From Prevotella sp. (GTDB lineage Bacteria; Bacteroidota; Bacteroidia; Bacteroidales; Bacteroidaceae): a stretch of DNA of 55,506 nt. Both the position numbers and the translations under genes were made by a program. Shown here piece by piece: positions 18,167-38,728 of the stretch. How positions within the stretch are numbered: position 1 is the first letter of the stretch; each line of letters begins with the position of its first letter. Where the stretch lies: positions 1 to 55,506 of the forward strand of contig JAFZRU010000050.1 in the NCBI GenBank assembly GCA_017619755.1, given 5' to 3'. The notes under the pieces are model-generated. The model was not told the DNA's origin, ran no database searches, and saw only the letters and a program-made list of their open reading frames with translations.

Positions 18167-18805
18167 ATGAACGGTATCGGAAAGACATTCATTTTATGCA
18201 TCATTGCAGCTACCATGGTTGCAAGTGGTGCGTTGGCGCAGCAAAAGGCACAGTCGCAAGTGCTCAATCAAGCACAGGCACAACCGCAAGCGAAGCAAAT
18301 CCTCTTCAGGGGAATACCTCTCGGAGGAGAACTGACTACGTTCAAGCAATTGATGCTTGAAAGGGGCTTCGCTCTCAACGAATGTCATAACGACCAGGAA
18401 GGCACATGCTCTTTCACTGGAAAGTTCGCCGGAGATTTCGTGGATGTATGCTGTGCGTTCACGCCCTCTGAACAAAAGGTGGCTAAAGTGGAGGTGCTTT
18501 TCAAAAGGCAGACCGTTGACAACCAAGGGAAAGCAGGGGTTACAAAGCAGCAGCAGTTGGCAAAATTCAACGAACTATACAAGACCATCTCCAACAACTA
18601 TGGCAAGCCCGCGAGAGACGTAAGGGGAGCTGGAAAGGGGGTGGAGAGATTAGTGGGATGGACTGCCACGGGAGGTTCTGTGTGCCTCTTGCTGCAAAAC
18701 CTGAAAGGAAGATACACCGCCATGTCGGTCGTCTTTTACCACAATGATGCGATGCAGCGGATGAATGAGGAAAAACCGAAAAATGATAATTTGTCACAAA
18801 AATAA
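18167..18805 (+). CDS. Secreted protein of unknown function
   Basis: A 212-residue protein with a clear signal peptide (about 1-24, cleavage after GALA). A Gln/Ala-rich linker (25-45, repeats of QAQ) follows, then a compact domain beginning ILFRGIPLGGELTTF. Two short cysteine-bearing segments (ECHNDQEGTCSF and DVCCAF) could form disulfides in the periplasm. The C-terminus is charged and loses structure (MNEEKPKNDN). No family is recognised. It lies between the cysteine hydrolase and the leucine operon and seems independent of both. Its stop codon lies in the loop of the inverted repeat at 18787-18824. Confidence 0.8.
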   Translation: MNGIGKTFILCIIAATMVASGALAQQKAQSQVLNQAQAQPQAKQILFRGIPLGGELTTFKQLMLERGFALNECHNDQEGTCSFTGKFAGDFVDVCCAFTPSEQKVAKVEVLFKRQTVDNQGKAGVTKQQQLAKFNELYKTISNNYGKPARDVRGAGKGVERLVGWTATGGSVCLLLQNLKGRYTAMSVVFYHNDAMQRMNEEKPKNDNLSQK

Positions 18806-18824
18806 GCAAAAAAGTGACAAATTA
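18787..18824. repeat. Inverted repeat between the secreted-protein gene and the leucine promoter
   Basis: TAATTTGTCAC (18787-18797) and GTGACAAATTA (18814-18824) are perfect 11-base arms with a 16-base A-rich spacer. The left arm is the 3' end of the upstream gene and the right arm touches the -33 element of the leu promoter. It could terminate the upstream gene or be an operator for the leucine operon. Confidence 0.5.
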
Positions 18825-18856
18825 TTTGTTCGTGTCCGATAAAATGTCTAATTTTG
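18825..18856 (+). promoter_or_regulatory. Promoter of the leucine operon
   Basis: TTTG (18825-18828), 20 bases, then TAATTTTG (18849-18856) fit the Bacteroidetes consensus exactly. Transcription would begin near 18863, leaving a leader of about 230 nt before leuA that contains the leader peptide and attenuator. Confidence 0.75.
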
Positions 18857-18905
18857 CAGCCGAAATCCATGCCAGAGCTAAAAGCGAAGGCGAAAATTGA
18901 CGGAC

Positions 18906-18986
18906 ATGACATACTACGGAATTATCCTTGGCATCCTTAGCATCCTACTGCACAGAGCAGCTGGAAGTGATGAGGTGTGTACGTAG
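18906..18986 (+). CDS. Leucine operon leader peptide (Ile/Leu-rich)
   Basis: A 26-codon frame from ATG 18906 to TAG 18984-18986. Residues 6-15 read IILGILSILL, so eight of ten are isoleucine or leucine (four Ile, four Leu). The rest is ordinary (MTYYG before, HRAAGSDEVCT after). It lies about 45 nt downstream of the predicted transcription start and directly upstream of a terminator in front of leuA. This is the layout of a ribosome-controlled attenuation peptide: scarcity of charged leucyl- or isoleucyl-tRNA would stall the ribosome between bases 18921 and 18950. No function other than regulation is expected. Confidence 0.8.
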   Translation: MTYYGIILGILSILLHRAAGSDEVCT

Positions 18987-19046
18987 CATGATGCTTGCAA
19001 CAATATGGCAACCTTTCTCACTTCCACAGTGCGAAAGGTTTTTTTT
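18962..19046 (+). terminator. Attenuator in front of leuA (antiterminator and terminator helices)
   Basis: Terminator: AACCTTTC (19010-19017) pairs with GAAAGGTT (19033-19040), and inside it CACT (19019-19022) pairs with AGTG (19028-19031). Eight T residues follow (19039-19046). Antiterminator: TGGAAGTGA (18962-18970), inside the leader peptide, is fully complementary to TCACTTCCA (19018-19026). GAGGT (18972-18976) can extend the helix onto 19011-19015, with one G-T pair. The two helices use the same bases, so only one can form. A ribosome stalled on the Ile/Leu codons leaves 18962-18976 free (read-through). One that reaches the stop at 18984 covers it (termination). Confidence 0.8.
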
Positions 19047-19095
19047 GTAATATGACAACAAAACTTTTGCATCACAAAACATTGAAAAGAAAAAG

Positions 19096-20604
19096 ATGAA
19101 CGACAGGATTTACATCTTCGACACAACACTAAGGGATGGTGAACAAGTCCCGGGGTGTCAACTCAACACCGTGGAGAAAATTCAAGTGGCAAGGCAGCTC
19201 GAACTGCTCGGGGTGGATGTCATAGAGGCTGGATTCCCCATCTCAAGCCCGGGGGACTTCAACTCCGTCATTGAAATCTCCAAGGCCGTCACCTGGCCCA
19301 CCATCTGCGCACTCACAAGAGCCATGGAGAGGGACATTGATGTGGCAGCAGAGTCACTCAAGTATGCCAAAAGAAAAAGAATACACACAGGGATAGGCAC
19401 CAGCGACCTGCACATCAAGTACAAGTTCAACTCCAATAGGGAGGAAATCATTGAAAGGGCGGTCAGGGCGGTCAAGTACGCAAAAAAGTATGTCGAGGAT
19501 GTGGAGTTCTATGCCGAGGATGCCGGTCGGACAGACAACGAGTACCTCGCAAGGGTGGTGGAGGCAGTCATCAAGGCGGGAGCCACCGTCGTCAACATTC
19601 CCGACACTACGGGGTATTGTTTGCCAGAGGAATATGGACAGAAAATCAAGTACCTCGTCGAGCATATCGATGGAATACACAAGGCCGTCATTTCCACCCA
19701 CTGTCACAATGACCTGGGGGTGGCTACGGCAAACACCTTCGCGGGCGTCGTCAACGGGGCAAGGCAGGTGGAGGTCACCATCAACGGTATTGGGGAGAGG
19801 GCTGGAAACACCTCGCTTGAGGAAATTGCCATGATACTCAAGTGCCACAAGAACCTCAATTACGAAACCAACATCAACACCACGAAAATCTACCCCATCA
19901 GCCGAATGGTGTCGAGCCTCATGAACATGCCCGTGCAACCCAACAAGGCCATCGTGGGACGAAACGCCTTCGCTCACTCCAGCGGAATACACCAGGACGG
20001 AGTGCTGAAAAATGTCTCCACCTACGAAATCATAGACCCCAAGGACATCGGCCTCGACGACAACTCCATCGTTCTCACGGCACGTTCGGGAAGGGCGGCG
20101 CTCAAATATCGGCTGAATGTGCTTGGCGTCAACATTGACGATGAGAAGCGCATCGACAAAATATACGAGAAGTTCCTCAAACTGGCCGACCAGAAAAAGG
20201 AGGTCGGCGACCCCGACATCCTCATGCTCGCCGGGGCTGACACAGCAGAGGCGCATGCCGTCAAACTCGACTTCCTGCAAGTAACCACCGGGATGGGGGT
20301 CAGAAGCGTCGCAAGCATCGGACTCGACATCAGCGGACAGAAATTCGTGGAGGCTTCCACAGGAAACGGACCTGTCGATGCCGCCATCAACGCTCTCAAG
20401 AGAATCATACAGAAGAAAATGACGCTCAAGGAATTCACCATACAAGCCATCTCCAAAGGCTCCAACGACGTGGGCAAGGTACACATGCAGGTGGAGTATG
20501 ACGGAGGACTGTATTATGGCTTCGGGGCAAACACCGACATCGTCACCGCTTCTGTGGAGGCTTACATCGACTGTATCAACAAATTCAAGCAGAAACAACC
20601 ATGA
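19096..20604 (+). CDS. leuA: 2-Isopropylmalate synthase
   Basis: First committed step of leucine synthesis: acetyl-CoA plus 2-ketoisovalerate gives 2-isopropylmalate. The 502-residue protein has the catalytic barrel with [12 protein letters not shown] (9-20), the metal-binding [14 protein letters not shown], and [11 protein letters not shown]. The C-terminal LeuA dimer/regulatory domain carries [13 protein letters not shown] and would bind leucine for feedback inhibition. The start follows an A-rich stretch (AAAAGAAAAAG) after the attenuator. The stop overlaps leuC by 4 bases. It is the first structural gene of the operon, so it would be controlled by the attenuator. Confidence 0.96.
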
Positions 20605-22001
20605 ACACGCTTTTCGACAAAATCTGGGACCGACACGTCGTCCAAAACATCAAGGACGGCCCCACTCAACTATACATCGACAGGCTCTACTGCCACGAGG
20701 TCACCACGCCGCAGGCTTTTGATGGGCTAAGGGCGAGGGGACTGAAGTGCTTGAGGCCGCAGAAAATCTTCTGCATGTCAGACCACAACACACCCACGCA
20801 TGACCAGGACAAACCCATACAGGACCCCGTGTCAAGGGCGCAGGTGGAAACTCTTGAGCGAAATAGCAAGGAGTTCCATCTCAATCATTTCCCCGTCATG
20901 TCTCCTGACAATGGCATCATTCATGTCGTCGGGCCGGAGAAAGGACTGTCGCTGCCGGGGATGACCATCGTGTGCGGTGACTCCCACACCTCCACCCATG
21001 GGGCCATGGGGGCTGTTGCTTTCGGCATCGGAACGTCGGAAGTGGAAATGGTGCTTGCATCGCAGTGCATCCTCCAGCAGAAACCCAAGTCCATGCGCAT
21101 CAACATCAACGGAAAATTGGCTAAAGGGGTCACGCCAAAGGACGTGGCATTATACCTCATGGCGGAAATCACCACGTCGGGAGCCACTGGCTATTTCGTG
21201 GAATATGCCGGAGAGGTGGTGGAGCACATGTCCATGGAGGGTAGGCTTACACTGTGCAACCTCAGCATCGAGATGGGCGCAAGGGGGGGATTCGTCGCAC
21301 CTGATGACACGACTTTCCAATACCTCAAGGGAAGGGAGTATGCACCCAAGGGGGAGGAATGGGAAAAGGCAGTGGCATGGTGGAGAACACTGAAAAGCGG
21401 TGACGACGCCGTCATTGACAAGGAACTCACATTCGATGCTGCTGACATCGAACCGAGAATCACCTACGGCACCAACCCGGGAATGGGCATCGCCATCAAC
21501 GAGTGCGTTCCAACGACCCTACAAGTGTCGGAAAAAGGAAGGGCGGCTTTCAAGAAAGCACTCCAATACATGGGGTTCAAGGAGGGGGAGCCTCTCGTGG
21601 GACATCCCGTGGACTACGTCTTCCTCGGGGCTTGCACCAACGGGAGAATTGAGGATTTCCGTGCTTTCGCATCCATCGTCAAGGGGAGGAAAAAGGCCCC
21701 GGGGCTCACAGCTTGGCTCGTGCCGGGTAGTTGGGCCGTGGAAAAGCAAATCAGACAGGAGGGAATCGACCGCATCCTGAAAGAGGCGGGATTCGAGATA
21801 CGACAGCCGGGGTGCTCGGCATGCCTCGCCATGAACGATGACAAAGTGCCCCCCGGCAAATACTGCATGGCCACCAGCAACCGCAACTTTGAGGGAAGGC
21901 AGGGACCGGGGGCGAGGACCATCCTTGCAAGTCCGCTCACTGCAGCCGCCACGGCCGTCACAGGAGTGGTGACTGACCCGAGAACCCTTATGGAACCATG
22001 A
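20601..22001 (+). CDS. leuC: 3-Isopropylmalate dehydratase large subunit
   Basis: Isomerises 2- to 3-isopropylmalate with LeuD. The 466-residue aconitase-family protein shows DRHVVQNI near the start, [14 protein letters not shown], and the 4Fe-4S ligands in [13 protein letters not shown] and [10 protein letters not shown]. The C-terminus has [22 protein letters not shown]. Length is normal. ATGA overlaps connect it to leuA upstream and leuD downstream. Confidence 0.97.
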
Positions 22002-22618
22002 ACAACCGCCACTACAACATCATTGATATGAAAAAGAAATTCAACATCATCAGGTCAACTTGCGTCCCACTGCCTTTAGAGAATGTGGACACCGACCAAA
22101 TCATACCCGCACGCTTCCTGAAGGCTACGGACAAGAAGGGATTCGGAGACAACCTCTTCAGAGACTGGAGATACGACAAGGATGGTAAGCCCGTCAAGGA
22201 TTTCGTACTCAACAAGCCCGAATATGGAGGGTGCATCCTTGTGGTAGGCAAGAATTTCGGTTCCGGCTCGTCCAGGGAGCATGCCGCATGGGCCATCGCT
22301 GGATATGGCTTCAGGGTGGTTGTCAGTTCCTTCTTCGCTGACATACACATGAACAACGAACTCAATAATTTCGTCCTTCCCGTCATCGTCTCTGAACAGT
22401 TTCTCGCAGAACTCTTCCAGTCCATCGACGACAATCCAAAGACGGAGGTGGAGGTCGATTTGCCCAACCAGAGAATCACCAACCTCGCCAATGGGAAAAC
22501 CGAGCATTTCAACATCAATGCTTATAAAAAACACTGCCTCGTCAACGGACTTGACGACATCGACTTCCTGATGCAAAACACCGACAAGATAGAAGAATGG
22601 GAACGACGGAACAACTGA
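21998..22618 (+). CDS. leuD: 3-Isopropylmalate dehydratase small subunit
   Basis: Partner of LeuC. The 206-residue protein contains [31 protein letters not shown] and [12 protein letters not shown], all typical of the small subunit swivelling domain. The ATG at 21998 overlaps the leuC stop by 4 bases; a second ATG at 22028 ([15 protein letters not shown]) would give the more usual 196-residue length, so the first ten residues are uncertain. The stop overlaps the next gene's ATG (TGATG). Confidence 0.96.
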
Positions 22619-24174
22619 TGGAGGGGCGGTTGACACATCCGCTCATCGAAATCATGGACAGCACACTCCGCGACGGGGAACAGACAAGCGGAGTGTCCTT
22701 CCTGCCACATGAGAAACTCATGATCGCGAGAATGCTCATCGAGGACATCAACGTGGACAGAATCGAGGTGGCGTCTGCAAGGGTCTCCCAAACAGACAAG
22801 GAGGCTGTGAAACTCGTCTGCAGGTATGCAGAAAGGATTGGAATGCTCAACAAGGTGGAGGTGTTGGGATTCGTTGACGGGAACCTCTCGCTCGACTGGA
22901 TTGACAGCTGCGGATGCAAAAACATCAACCTCCTGGCAAAAGGCTCGCTCAGACACTGCAAGCTGCAACTCTACAAAACTCCTGACGAGCACGTGGAAGA
23001 CATCCTGAGGTCACTCGACTATGCCGACAAGCTCGGGATTGGGGTCAACATCTACCTCGAAGACTGGAGCAGCGGCATGCAGGACTCGCCGGAATACATC
23101 TACCATCTCATGGAAAGGCTTTCCAACACCAACATCAAGCGATTCATGCTCCCCGACACTCTCGGCATCACCAACCCCCTGCAGGTCATCGAGTTCTTCA
23201 GGAAAATGAGGAAGAGGTTTCCCGACGTGCATTTCGACTTCCACGCCCACAACGACTACGATCTGGCTGTCTCCAACTCCCTCGCTGCCGTGTTGTGCGG
23301 TGCCAAGGGCATCCATGTCACCGTCAACGGACTGGGGGAGCGCTGTGGAAACGCACCTCTCGCATCCGTGCAAGTCATTCTCAAGGACCAATTCCGGGCA
23401 AGGACCAACATCAAGGAGGACAAACTCAACGATGTCAGCAGGCTTGTCGAGGAATATAGTGGCATCGCCATCGCACCCAACCAACCCATCGTGGGTGACA
23501 ACGTCTTCACGCAGGTGGCTGGGGTACACGCCGACGGAGATAACAAGGACAACCTCTACTGTAACCCCCTCGTGCCGGAGAGGTTTGGAAGAAGCCGCGA
23601 GTATGCCTTGGGTAAAAACAGTGGAAAGGCCAACATCGCCCTCAACCTCCAGAAACTCGGTCTTGAACTCACCCCGGAACAAATGGCCAAGGTGACGCAG
23701 AGAATCACAGAACTGGGAGAGAGAAAGGAAATCGTCACACAGGACGACCTGCCCTATATCGTCAACGACGTGCTCAAGCACACCACCCCAGAGGAAAAGG
23801 TGAAACTCATCAGCTACATGGTCACCTCCACTTACGGGTTGAAACCCATAGCAAGCATCAAGGTGGAAATCGGGGGAAAGCAATATGCTTCCGAGTCCAC
23901 GGGCGATGGTCAATACGACGCCTTCGTCAAGGCACTGAGGAAAATCTACAAGAAATACCTCGACCGCACCTTCCCCATCCTCGCCAACTACGCCGTCACC
24001 ATACCACCGGGAGGGCGCACCGACGCCCTCGTACAGACGGTCATCACATGGAGAAACGGTGACAAGATGATACGCACAAGGGGGCTCGACGCCGACCAGA
24101 CGGAGGCCGCCATCAAGGCGACACTGCGCATGCTCAACATCTTCGAGGAGCAATCGTCACCATCAAGTCCCTAA
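22618..24174 (+). CDS. Second 2-isopropylmalate/citramalate synthase-type enzyme
   Basis: A 518-residue HMGL-like enzyme of the LeuA/CimA/homocitrate group. [15 protein letters not shown] is the catalytic loop, [15 protein letters not shown] the metal-binding HxH motif and [14 protein letters not shown] the third motif. A C-terminal LeuA-type regulatory domain carries [18 protein letters not shown]. It is clearly distinct from the leuA of the same operon. Given its place in the leu operon and its substitutions, the best guess is (R)-citramalate synthase, making isoleucine precursors from pyruvate with the shared leuCD-leuB enzymes; isopropylmalate synthase activity is the alternative. The start is taken at 22618 (overlapping TGATG); an ATG 7 codons earlier would overlap leuD by 22 bases. 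Its last codons lie in a 9-base repeat array. Confidence 0.85.
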
Positions 24175-24223: not shown

Positions 24224-25285
24224 ATGAAACTTAGCATAGCCGTCCTCTCTGGCGACGGGATAGGTCCAGAGATCATGCAACAAGGAGTGGCTGTCATGGA
24301 CGCCATAGCAAAGAAATTCAACCACCAAGTGACCTATCGGGAGGCCATCTGCGGGGCACAGGCCATCGACCTCGTGGGAGACCCTTTCCCCGAGGAGACT
24401 TTCAACACATGCTTGGAAGCCGACGCCGTGCTATTCGCCGCAGTGGGAGACCCGCGTTTCGACAACGACCCCACGGCAAAGGTGAGACCTGAGAACGGAC
24501 TGCTCGCCATGAGGAAGAAACTGGGGTTGTATGCCAACATCAGACCCGTACAGACTTTCGACTGCCTGTTGCACAAAAGTCCGCTCAAGACGGAACTTGT
24601 CAGGGGGGCTGACTTCGTATGTATTCGCGAACTCACTGGAGGCATGTATTTCGGAGAGAAATACCAGGACAACGACCGGGCATACGACACCAATCTTTAC
24701 ACAAGGCCGGAGGTGGAACGCATTCTCAAGGTGGGGTTTGAATATGCCATGAAAAGAAAGAAGCACCTCACGGTGGTCGATAAGGCCAACGTGTTGGCTT
24801 CCAGTAGGCTGTGGAGGCAGATAGCAAAGGAAATGGAACCGGCATGGCCCGAGGTCAATGTAGATTATATGTTCGTGGATAATGCCTCCATGCGCATGAT
24901 TGCTGAACCAACGTTCTTCGATGTCATCGTCACGGAGAACACCTTCGGAGACATCCTCACTGACGAGGGTAGTTGCATCTCAGGCTCCATGGGGTTGTTA
25001 CCTTCGGCCTCCACTGGAGTGTTCACGCCGCTCTTCGAACCCGTCCATGGCTCTTGGCCCCAGGCAGCCGGGAAAAACTTGGCCAACCCGCTTGCACAAA
25101 TCCTCTCCGTGGCCATGCTCTTCGAGCATTTCGGTCTCAACGAGGAGGGTGCGCTCGTGAGGAAGGCGGTCGATGCCAGCCTCGATGCGAATGTTCGCAC
25201 ACCGGAGATACAGGTGGAGGGTGGTGCCATGTATGGCACAAGAGAAGTTGGACAGTGGATTGTTGATTGGATCAACAAGCAATGA
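24224..25285 (+). CDS. leuB: 3-Isopropylmalate dehydrogenase
   Basis: NAD-dependent oxidative decarboxylation of 3-isopropylmalate to the leucine precursor. The 353-residue protein has [14 protein letters not shown] at the start, [47 protein letters not shown] and [18 protein letters not shown], all typical. If the cimA-like enzyme makes citramalate, LeuB would also process its methylmalate product. It ends in an ATGA overlap with the TPR-protein gene. Confidence 0.97.
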
Positions 25286-38653: not shown

Positions 38654-38728
38654 AGGAGCATAGCTCAGTTGGTTTAGAGCGCTTCAGTCACATTGAAGAG
38701 GTCATCGGTTCGAGTCCGATTGTTCCTA
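38654..38728 (+). tRNA. tRNA-Val, anticodon CAC
   Basis: Cloverleaf: acceptor AGGAGCA with TGTTCCT (one G-T pair), D-stem GCTC/GAGC, anticodon stem CTTCA/TGAAG around the loop GTCACAT (anticodon CAC, reading GUG valine). The T-stem is ATCGG/CCGAT with loop TTCGAGT, and the discriminator is A. The 3' CCA is not encoded, as usual in Bacteroidetes. Confidence 0.95.

Follow-up and report, generated by a model that had tools for sequence, protein, structure and literature searches.

A putative isoleucine/leucine attenuator upstream of leuA in Prevotella and its relatives

The 55,506-nt contig JAFZRU010000050.1 of Prevotella sp. (assembly GCA_017619755.1), analysed at its full length and referred to as the window, carries a leader upstream of leuA that is very probably a ribosome-mediated transcription attenuator sensing charged tRNA-Ile and tRNA-Leu and controlling leuA-leuC-leuD-cimA-leuB. 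The leader contains an open reading frame (ORF) with a run of codons that specify the operon's amino acid products, the isoleucine precursor being ascribed to the operon from its cimA-like gene. A protector (1:2) hairpin overlaps the control codons, an antiterminator exclusive with the terminator is placed, by sequence and model, free beside a stalled ribosome, and an intrinsic terminator lies between the leader ORF and leuA. Judged from its sequence, the conserved and covarying protector makes the element a complete classical three-helix attenuator. The ORF, the control codons and their spacing to the arm, the three helices and the terminator can be located directly in the DNA:

18825..18856, + strand: promoter of Bacteroidota type, with TTTG (18825-18828), 20 nt and TAATTTTG (18849-18856); an exact match to TTTG-N18-22-TAnnTTTG
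18906..18986, + strand: leader peptide ORF, ATG to TAG, 26 codons, MTYYGIILGILSILLHRAAGSDEVCT
18921..18950, + strand: control codons 6-15, Ile Ile Leu Gly Ile Leu Ser Ile Leu Leu (8 Ile/Leu)
18943..18965, + strand: 1:2 protector hairpin, TCC 18943-18945 with GGA 18963-18965 and CTGC 18948-18951 with GCAG 18957-18960
18962..18975, + strand: antiterminator 5' arm (segment 2), TGGAAGTGA 18962-18970 and GAGG 18972-18975
18976..18977, + strand: putative pause-like site, Y-1 G+1 with G-10, 11 nt past the protector hairpin
19012..19026, + strand: antiterminator 3' arm (segment 3), CCTT 19012-19015 and TCACTTCCA 19018-19026
19010..19046, + strand: intrinsic terminator (segments 3:4), hairpin 19010-19040 of 8 bp, a 1x1 mismatch and 4 bp; T8 at 19039-19046

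An earlier sequence-only reading of this DNA had placed the promoter, the 26-codon leader and the terminator at the same coordinates, which proved right when checked letter by letter. Its eight Ile/Leu within codons 6-15 are read directly at 18921-18950, the perfect complementarity it claimed is there (TGGAAGTGA, 18962-18970, and TCACTTCCA, 19018-19026, are exact reverse complements), and so is its 8+4 bp terminator with eight T before leuA. Sharing of bases between terminator and antiterminator was likewise supported. The same reading saw no obvious third (1:2) helix and described a two-state switch working by ribosome occlusion only; this is contradicted by the protector hairpin, which is conserved and covaries in relatives and is present in the window too, and the design is the ordinary one with three helices.

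The course of events predicted from these parts, from the start of transcription and the translation of the leader to stalling, pausing and the starvation response, would be as follows. A ribosome would begin the leader peptide while RNA polymerase, having started just past 18856, possibly pauses behind the 1:2 hairpin near 18976. With ample isoleucine and leucine, the ribosome would pass the codon run and cover segment 2, and the 3:4 terminator would form before leuA. When Ile-tRNA or Leu-tRNA is short, it would stall in the run, where codons 9-15 should matter most; the stalled ribosome would break the 1:2 hairpin and halt immediately before segment 2, leading to 2:3 pairing and transcription of the operon. 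In an untranslated leader, 1:2 plus 3:4 would form and transcription would end.

Within the window, the fold of 19005-19051 reached -13.6 kcal/mol (z -3.4), and only the terminator stood out among the leader pieces folded. The minimum free energy of the whole leader was unremarkable (z -0.66), as may be expected of a switch. A generic scan for sigma-70 sites and simple stems, whose rules fit neither element, listed neither the promoter at 18825-18856 nor the terminator; a weak sigma-70-like site that it placed at 18897-18925 was not credited as a promoter.

Conservation of the leader and its three helices

Upstream regions came from three sources. Close LeuA relatives supplied 80 named loci (the best 80 of 586), the window added its own, and a further 29 were taken from 100 genomes of the genus, for which loci were available at the best 30 places. 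In this genus search, 78 of the 100 genomes gave a match, a few of them with a weaker cimA-type paralogue only. After removal of five duplicates, 105 distinct leuA upstream regions were left, four of them shorter than 260 nt. The closest named relative among the matches listed was L003, a metagenome-assembled 'uncultured Prevotellaceae bacterium' with a LeuA 97% identical. An Ile/Leu-rich leader, defined as an ORF that starts with ATG and has six or more Ile/Leu within ten codons, was present in 82 of the 105 regions, the window included, and 78 of these passed the anchor rule for both arms (anchored set). The leader is also present in the Segatella copri locus, L047. The pattern TTTG-N18-22-TAnnTTTG, which we take to be the Bacteroidota promoter motif and on which the promoter label at 18825-18856 is based, was found 5' of the leader start in 75 of the 78.

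Codon use was specific for the leader frame. Up to the arm, 609 of 1271 in-frame codons of the anchored set encoded Ile or Leu; for the other two frames the counts were 328/1201 and 46/1193. The counted stretch had no stop in the ORF frame versus 73 and 75 in the others, the ORF stop of L026 lying 12 nt before the arm and just outside this stretch. CTA accounted for 30.9% of the leader Leu codons versus 1.6% in the leuA genes that belong to anchored named loci, and ATT for 86% of the leader Ile codons versus 32%. All 78 leaders contained 3-7 Ile and 1-6 Leu codons, and 33 had no Val before the arm.

The distance from the last Ile/Leu codon to GGAAG was exactly 12 nt in 68 anchored loci and 13 nt in seven, with 6, 7 and 9 nt in one each. 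The last control codon was Leu in 78/78 (CTG in 54). The ribosome's leading edge lies about 11 nt beyond the A-site codon; on this footprint, a ribosome stalled on the last Leu would only just leave the arm exposed; advanced by one codon, it would cover the start of the arm. Counted from the arm's first G, the stop codon lay 21 nt on in 49 loci, 5 nt on in seven and at +27 in ten. With the same footprint assumed, little or none of the arm would stay free of a terminating ribosome at 21 and 5 nt, and more of it at +27. A peptide tail resembling GSDKVC is recurrent in many leuA loci. The arm is in the ORF frame in 70 of the anchored loci and shifted by one in eight, which include all seven 13-nt cases; as the tail peptide changes in these eight while the RNA stays, the tail appears to be kept as RNA and not as peptide. 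The conserved ORF, arms and codon-to-arm spacing thus support leader-peptide attenuation of leuA. Loss in relatives of the reading frame or of the 18962-18970/19018-19026 complementarity had been named beforehand as grounds for giving up this explanation, and both were found conserved.

The helices were scored on 77 anchored sequences (L026 excluded), in 15 of which the left arm is one base shorter and ungapped in the alignment, so that some of their pairs are misread. RNAalifold, unprompted, returned a hairpin of the last control codons with the arm start, plus the terminator. For the seven pairs of the protector, 93.5% of cells were paired (slid versions at most 59.4%), and both partners had changed in 22 cells, a number that 0/500 shuffles reached (shuffle mean 5.3); these shuffle counts are not probabilities, as the aligned sequences are related to each other. 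The 13 pairs of the terminator were paired in 93.4% of cells (slid versions at most 64.9%), with 45 cells changed on both sides compared to a mean of 14.3 (again 0/500). The antiterminator, also of 13 pairs, reached 89.4% (slid versions at most 59.2%), and its covariation score was reached by 7/500 shuffles. Its flanking pair alone covaries clearly (C-G 38, U-A 10, U-G 3 and other 17 among the 68 sequences with letters on both sides). An alignment across relatives, proposed along with the sequence-only reading, has therefore borne out the Ile/Leu runs (82/105 loci) and the both-side changes in the terminator, while the near invariance of the antiterminator core left covariation uninformative there.

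A block GGTGTG beyond the arm was also conserved, and no helix uses all of it. More broadly, leuA leaders keep the block GGTGTGYATGTA (18974-18986) past the antiterminator arm, and ilvD leaders keep it in part, to a degree that the helices do not call for. The consensus of polymerase pauses is G-10, Y-1, G+1. A pattern of this kind occurred 11 nt past the protector hairpin in 54/77 sequences, and the count at 13 nt was also 54; the G-10 positions lie within the nearly invariant arm, so that only the Y-G step is informative. A pause near 18976/18977 may be conjectured from this pattern.

Switching was modelled by folding the RNA ahead of a ribosome for each codon placement at equilibrium, with the RNA behind it ignored. 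For the window, the probability of the terminator was 0.95 with no ribosome and 0.95-0.98 with the A site from codon 16 onwards. The antiterminator won only with the A site on codons 9-15 (0.92-1.00), and codons 6-8 were weak (0.27, 0.06 and 0.49). When the leading edge was displaced by anything from -2 to +4 nt, these borders moved by one codon. Among the loci with the arm in frame (69-70 per position), the mean probability of the antiterminator was 0.40-0.47 at A-site positions -30 to -18, 0.32 at -15 and 0.00 from -12. With the A site at -15 and arm 4 not yet transcribed, the antiterminator formed in 77/78 loci (mean 0.97).

Several of these results weigh against the proposed attenuator, besides the relatedness of the aligned sequences. 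At equilibrium, the probability of the antiterminator exceeded 0.5 at any stall position from -33 to -15 in only 41/78 loci, and at -15, the last stall position, in 25/78; the equilibrium model alone does not favour it in 37/78, and the outcome must hence be kinetic in these remaining relatives. Before arm 4 exists, the partly masked arm at -12 still pairs (mean 0.86). With a leading edge shifted by +2 nt or more, lying at least 15 nt beyond the first base of the A site, the last Leu codon fails. The protector has three pairs with both-side changes, a number reached by 116/500 shuffles, and covariation barely tests the antiterminator, whose core is nearly invariant (3 both-side pairs versus a shuffle mean of 3.5). 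Finally, 23/105 leuA loci failed the ORF criterion. Four of the 23 are near misses (L020, L064, L067 and L089), L021 is truncated with both arms visible, and approximately 18 of the 105 seem, by eye, to be without an attenuator. Among these 18, L060 and L095 keep terminator-like hairpins, and L031 and L066 have very short flanks. From inspection by eye, such relatives appear to be natural losses or to use other promoters.

A Bacteroidota-type promoter close to leuA and no leader attenuator were seen by eye in L011, L013, L030, L032, L042, L048 and L063, and likewise in L076, L079, L087, L103, L105, L111 and others.

The operon and the related leaders before ilvD

The genes downstream of the leader, all on the + strand, were assigned with NCBIfam models as follows:

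19096..20604, + strand: leuA, 2-isopropylmalate synthase (TIGR00973 and NF002086, above cut-off)
20601..22001, + strand: leuC (TIGR00170, above cut-off)
21998..22618, + strand: leuD (TIGR00171, above cut-off)
22597..24174, + strand: cimA-like gene (Leptospira-type citramalate synthase; best match NF042433, 615 bits)
24224..25285, + strand: leuB (TIGR00169, above cut-off)

The fourth gene stays under the curated cut-off of NF042433 (615 of 950 bits) and is hence named cimA-like. Among solved structures, its product comes closest to citramalate synthase (3ble, E 5e-113), ahead of a homocitrate synthase (1e-58) and the best isopropylmalate synthase (1e-46). LeuCD and LeuB also act in the citramalate route to 2-oxobutyrate, the isoleucine precursor. 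The operon thus plausibly feeds both leucine and isoleucine, the isoleucine precursor being deduced from the cimA-like gene, and this can explain the sensing of both amino acids. The earlier suggestion that mixed Ile and Leu codons fit an operon that may feed both is supported by this gene. In the passages of a gut-genome survey drawn on here, CimA is named as an alternative first step to IlvA (PMC9026213).

Of the anchored named loci, 57 had a downstream flank of at least 2350 nt, and a cimA match followed leuD in 55 of them. In L006 and L035, the remaining two, the leuD match starts later and the flank ends too soon; three more loci were short of flank. A cimA match was also present in 17/20 named loci outside the anchored set; the presence of cimA does not track the attenuator. 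The cimA-like gene was found at 53% identity or more in 44/46 genomes, chosen among those positive for R1 (a covariance model built from the leader) plus G065. G065 and G150 had no such gene, and the leader-like ORFs there (L089 and L202) still contain Ile codons. Among the anchored named loci, there was no usable contrast as to whether Ile codons vanish where cimA is absent.

R1 was searched against family, order and class genomes with stricter filters, which lose weak matches. In the window's own genome it matched the leuA site alone (E 7e-20; other matches E >1), and no second attenuator of this scaffold was found there by R1. Matches were obtained in 106/201 family genomes (20/30 genera), 43/198 order genomes (36/151 genera) and 9/198 class genomes, six of which belong to the order. 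Besides the window's, family and order gave 178 distinct matches, and 97 of them were inspected (57 with a locus, L117-L173, and 40 chosen among the rest). The first ORF downstream was leuA in 64 and ilvD, identified by its N-terminal motif, in 29; the others were trpB (by eye) and a cimA homologue in one case each, and two ORFs with no clear assignment. The two leuA sets (78 anchored, 64 R1) have no leader ORF in common.

The codon content of the leaders differed with the gene behind them. In the best 12-codon window, Val was absent from 129/142 leuA leaders (78 anchored + 64) and never reached three, whereas 23/29 ilvD leaders had at least three Val and two had none (Mann-Whitney 1e-25, ignoring relatedness). 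Examples are INLAVLHIIRVVVV (L182) and VLVVVVVVV (L173). Many ilvD leaders share the core GTGAGAAAGG and CCTTTCTCAC with the leuA leaders. The ilvD leaders with added Val may be regarded as a natural specificity control in which, as far as their sequences tell, codon content follows the pathway. On this basis, we give roughly even chances to a common attenuator chassis in Bacteroidales (GTGAnAAAGGTGTG ... CCTTTCTCAC ... GTGAGAAAGG) that would carry Ile+Leu runs before leuA-leuCD-cimA-leuB and Val+Ile+Leu before ilvD, timed by a hairpin-linked pause and a fixed 12-nt codon-to-arm ruler. The trp leader was rejected as part of this leuA/ilvD chassis; the hairpins of L191 differ and the core is absent. 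The ilvD gene of the window's own genome (G000:C43, L222) had no comparable Ile/Leu/Val run in short ORFs within 420 nt upstream, unlike the 29 R1 ilvD loci.

In one match (L192, G129:C6), the leader MITSNLILVGIILLVLVE with the same hairpins precedes a cimA homologue as first ORF, and leuA follows several kb on, on the same strand; to judge by the sequence, the gene order is rearranged. Further R1-matched leaders were noted in class-level genomes, the genes being named by eye: a leader with HHHH before a hisG-like gene (L214), a Thr/Ile leader before an aspartokinase-like gene (L216), an Ile run before a threonine-dehydratase-like gene (L218) and two tandem Ile-rich leaders before an acetolactate synthase small-subunit-like gene (L215/L221). 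In the window's own genome, G000:C27:72574-72693 (- strand, L223) holds a candidate attenuator with the leader MKENGYFAWWWRYSRP, a hairpin and a T-rich tail; the leader lies 76 nt 5' of a TrpD-like ORF (by eye) and scored 37.2 bits with RF01692 against a gathering score of 49.

Alternative explanations

An attenuator of the same build that reads leucine only, with the Ile codons as tolerated filler or kept for RNA reasons, seems unlikely. It would fit the invariant Leu as last control codon (CTG in most loci), the strong enrichment of a rare codon that encodes Leu (CTA) and the prevalence of ATT among the Ile codons, which may partly reflect RNA constraints. Each of the 78 leaders nevertheless has at least three Ile codons, and a stall at Ile10 or Ile13 gives a probability of the antiterminator near 1 in the window model. 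The ilvD leaders, with codon content following the pathway, also speak for reading of isoleucine. The cimA-like gene in the operon points the same way, but with the reservation that it is about as regular in the non-anchored loci.

That a protein or small molecule switches the terminator and the alternative hairpin, with the short ORF being incidental, is very improbable. Terminator and antiterminator are indeed conserved in sequence as well as in pairing, which such a switch would account for; it would not account for the frame-specific Ile/Leu codons and the stop-free frame, for the 12-nt spacing in most loci or for control codons that vary with the downstream pathway. Rfam 15, searched at gathering score for the window and up to E 10 for 18780-19120, gave no riboswitch or T-box match in the leader. 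No family matched the leader; 18780-19120 yielded eight matches up to E 10, all below gathering score, the best (E 0.08) being on the other strand. Neither the Leu_leader model (which we take to be RF00512) nor the T-box model (presumably RF00230) matched the leader at either setting, and Bacteroid-trp (RF01692) had no match in the window, the leader peptide being without Trp. Arrest by the nascent peptide and not by its codons could invoke the recurrent GSDKVC-like tail, and its probability is smaller still: the tail is altered in the eight loci with the arm in another frame while the RNA is kept, the mix of Ile and Leu in the runs varies, and there is a preference for rare codons. Chance association of a hydrophobic short ORF with an ordinary terminator can practically be dismissed. 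It has nothing in its favour except the smallness of the element, which is conserved in genus, family and order; when 18858-19095 was shuffled 2000 times with dinucleotides preserved, an ORF with at least eight Ile/Leu in ten codons never arose, one with at least seven arose three times, and a comparable terminator once.

The only match of the window to Rfam at gathering score was a tRNA gene at 38654-38728 (+ strand).

Relation to known attenuators and significance

Leader peptide attenuation is textbook knowledge in Proteobacteria and known in Actinobacteria. The E. coli trp, his, leu and ilvGMEDA leaders resemble the leuA element in having an ORF with control codons and 1:2, 2:3 and 3:4 helices. 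Shared too are a match of codons to pathway and, with E. coli leuL, the rare CTA Leu codons. Compared to the attenuators of Proteobacteria, the leuA element differs in its missing match to Rfam Leu_leader, its Bacteroidota promoter, a segment 2 that in the window falls inside the leader ORF, Ile+Leu codons without Val and a cimA-like gene in the operon. Translation starts in Bacteroidota are largely without Shine-Dalgarno pairing. A comparative study of attenuation by Lopatovskaya et al. (2010) may cover Bacteroidetes.

For Bacteroidota, the open literature searched (titles and abstract openings) held predictions of attenuators only, and no Bacteroidales leuA or ilvD attenuator was found in it, which is not proof of absence. 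In the passages drawn on here, leader peptide attenuation was suggested before amino-acid operons from the 5' regions of F. psychrophilum (PMC9723704) and candidate leader peptides were proposed among the small ORFs of B. thetaiotaomicron (PMC7366714); these passages give no leuA element, helices or test. Bacteroid-trp RNA (RF01692) was described as a likely cis-regulatory RNA of Bacteroidetes by Weinberg et al. 2010 (PMC2864571, in the portion cited). It is similar to the leuA element as a candidate cis-regulatory RNA of this group, with the weak match L223 in the window's own genome, and differs in its Trp codons, the hairpin sequences of the trp leader L191 being different as well. According to the part of PMC1262725 referred to, the actinobacterial LEU element shares a leucine codon run upstream of leuA and involves a pseudoknot with the leuA Shine-Dalgarno box, whereas the Prevotella leader has an intrinsic terminator (no pseudoknot was sought). 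To the authors of a 2010 survey (PMC2965389, in the passage cited), no demonstrated case outside Proteobacteria and Actinobacteria was known until their own in Firmicutes. As far as these tools show, the leuA element is new as a described element and ordinary in mechanism.

The leuA leader is predicted from its sequence to be a natural sensor of two amino acids, linked to an operon for leucine and citramalate, and R1 provides an annotation rule for branched-chain amino-acid control across Bacteroidales. If the chassis works as proposed, it would mean tight transcription-translation coupling in Bacteroidota and a single leader that combines the signals of two amino acids whose synthesis shares a leucine/citramalate pathway. 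An attenuator this conserved and this precisely spaced, in Prevotella and across its order, would offer a direct test of ribosome-polymerase coupling in Bacteroidota.

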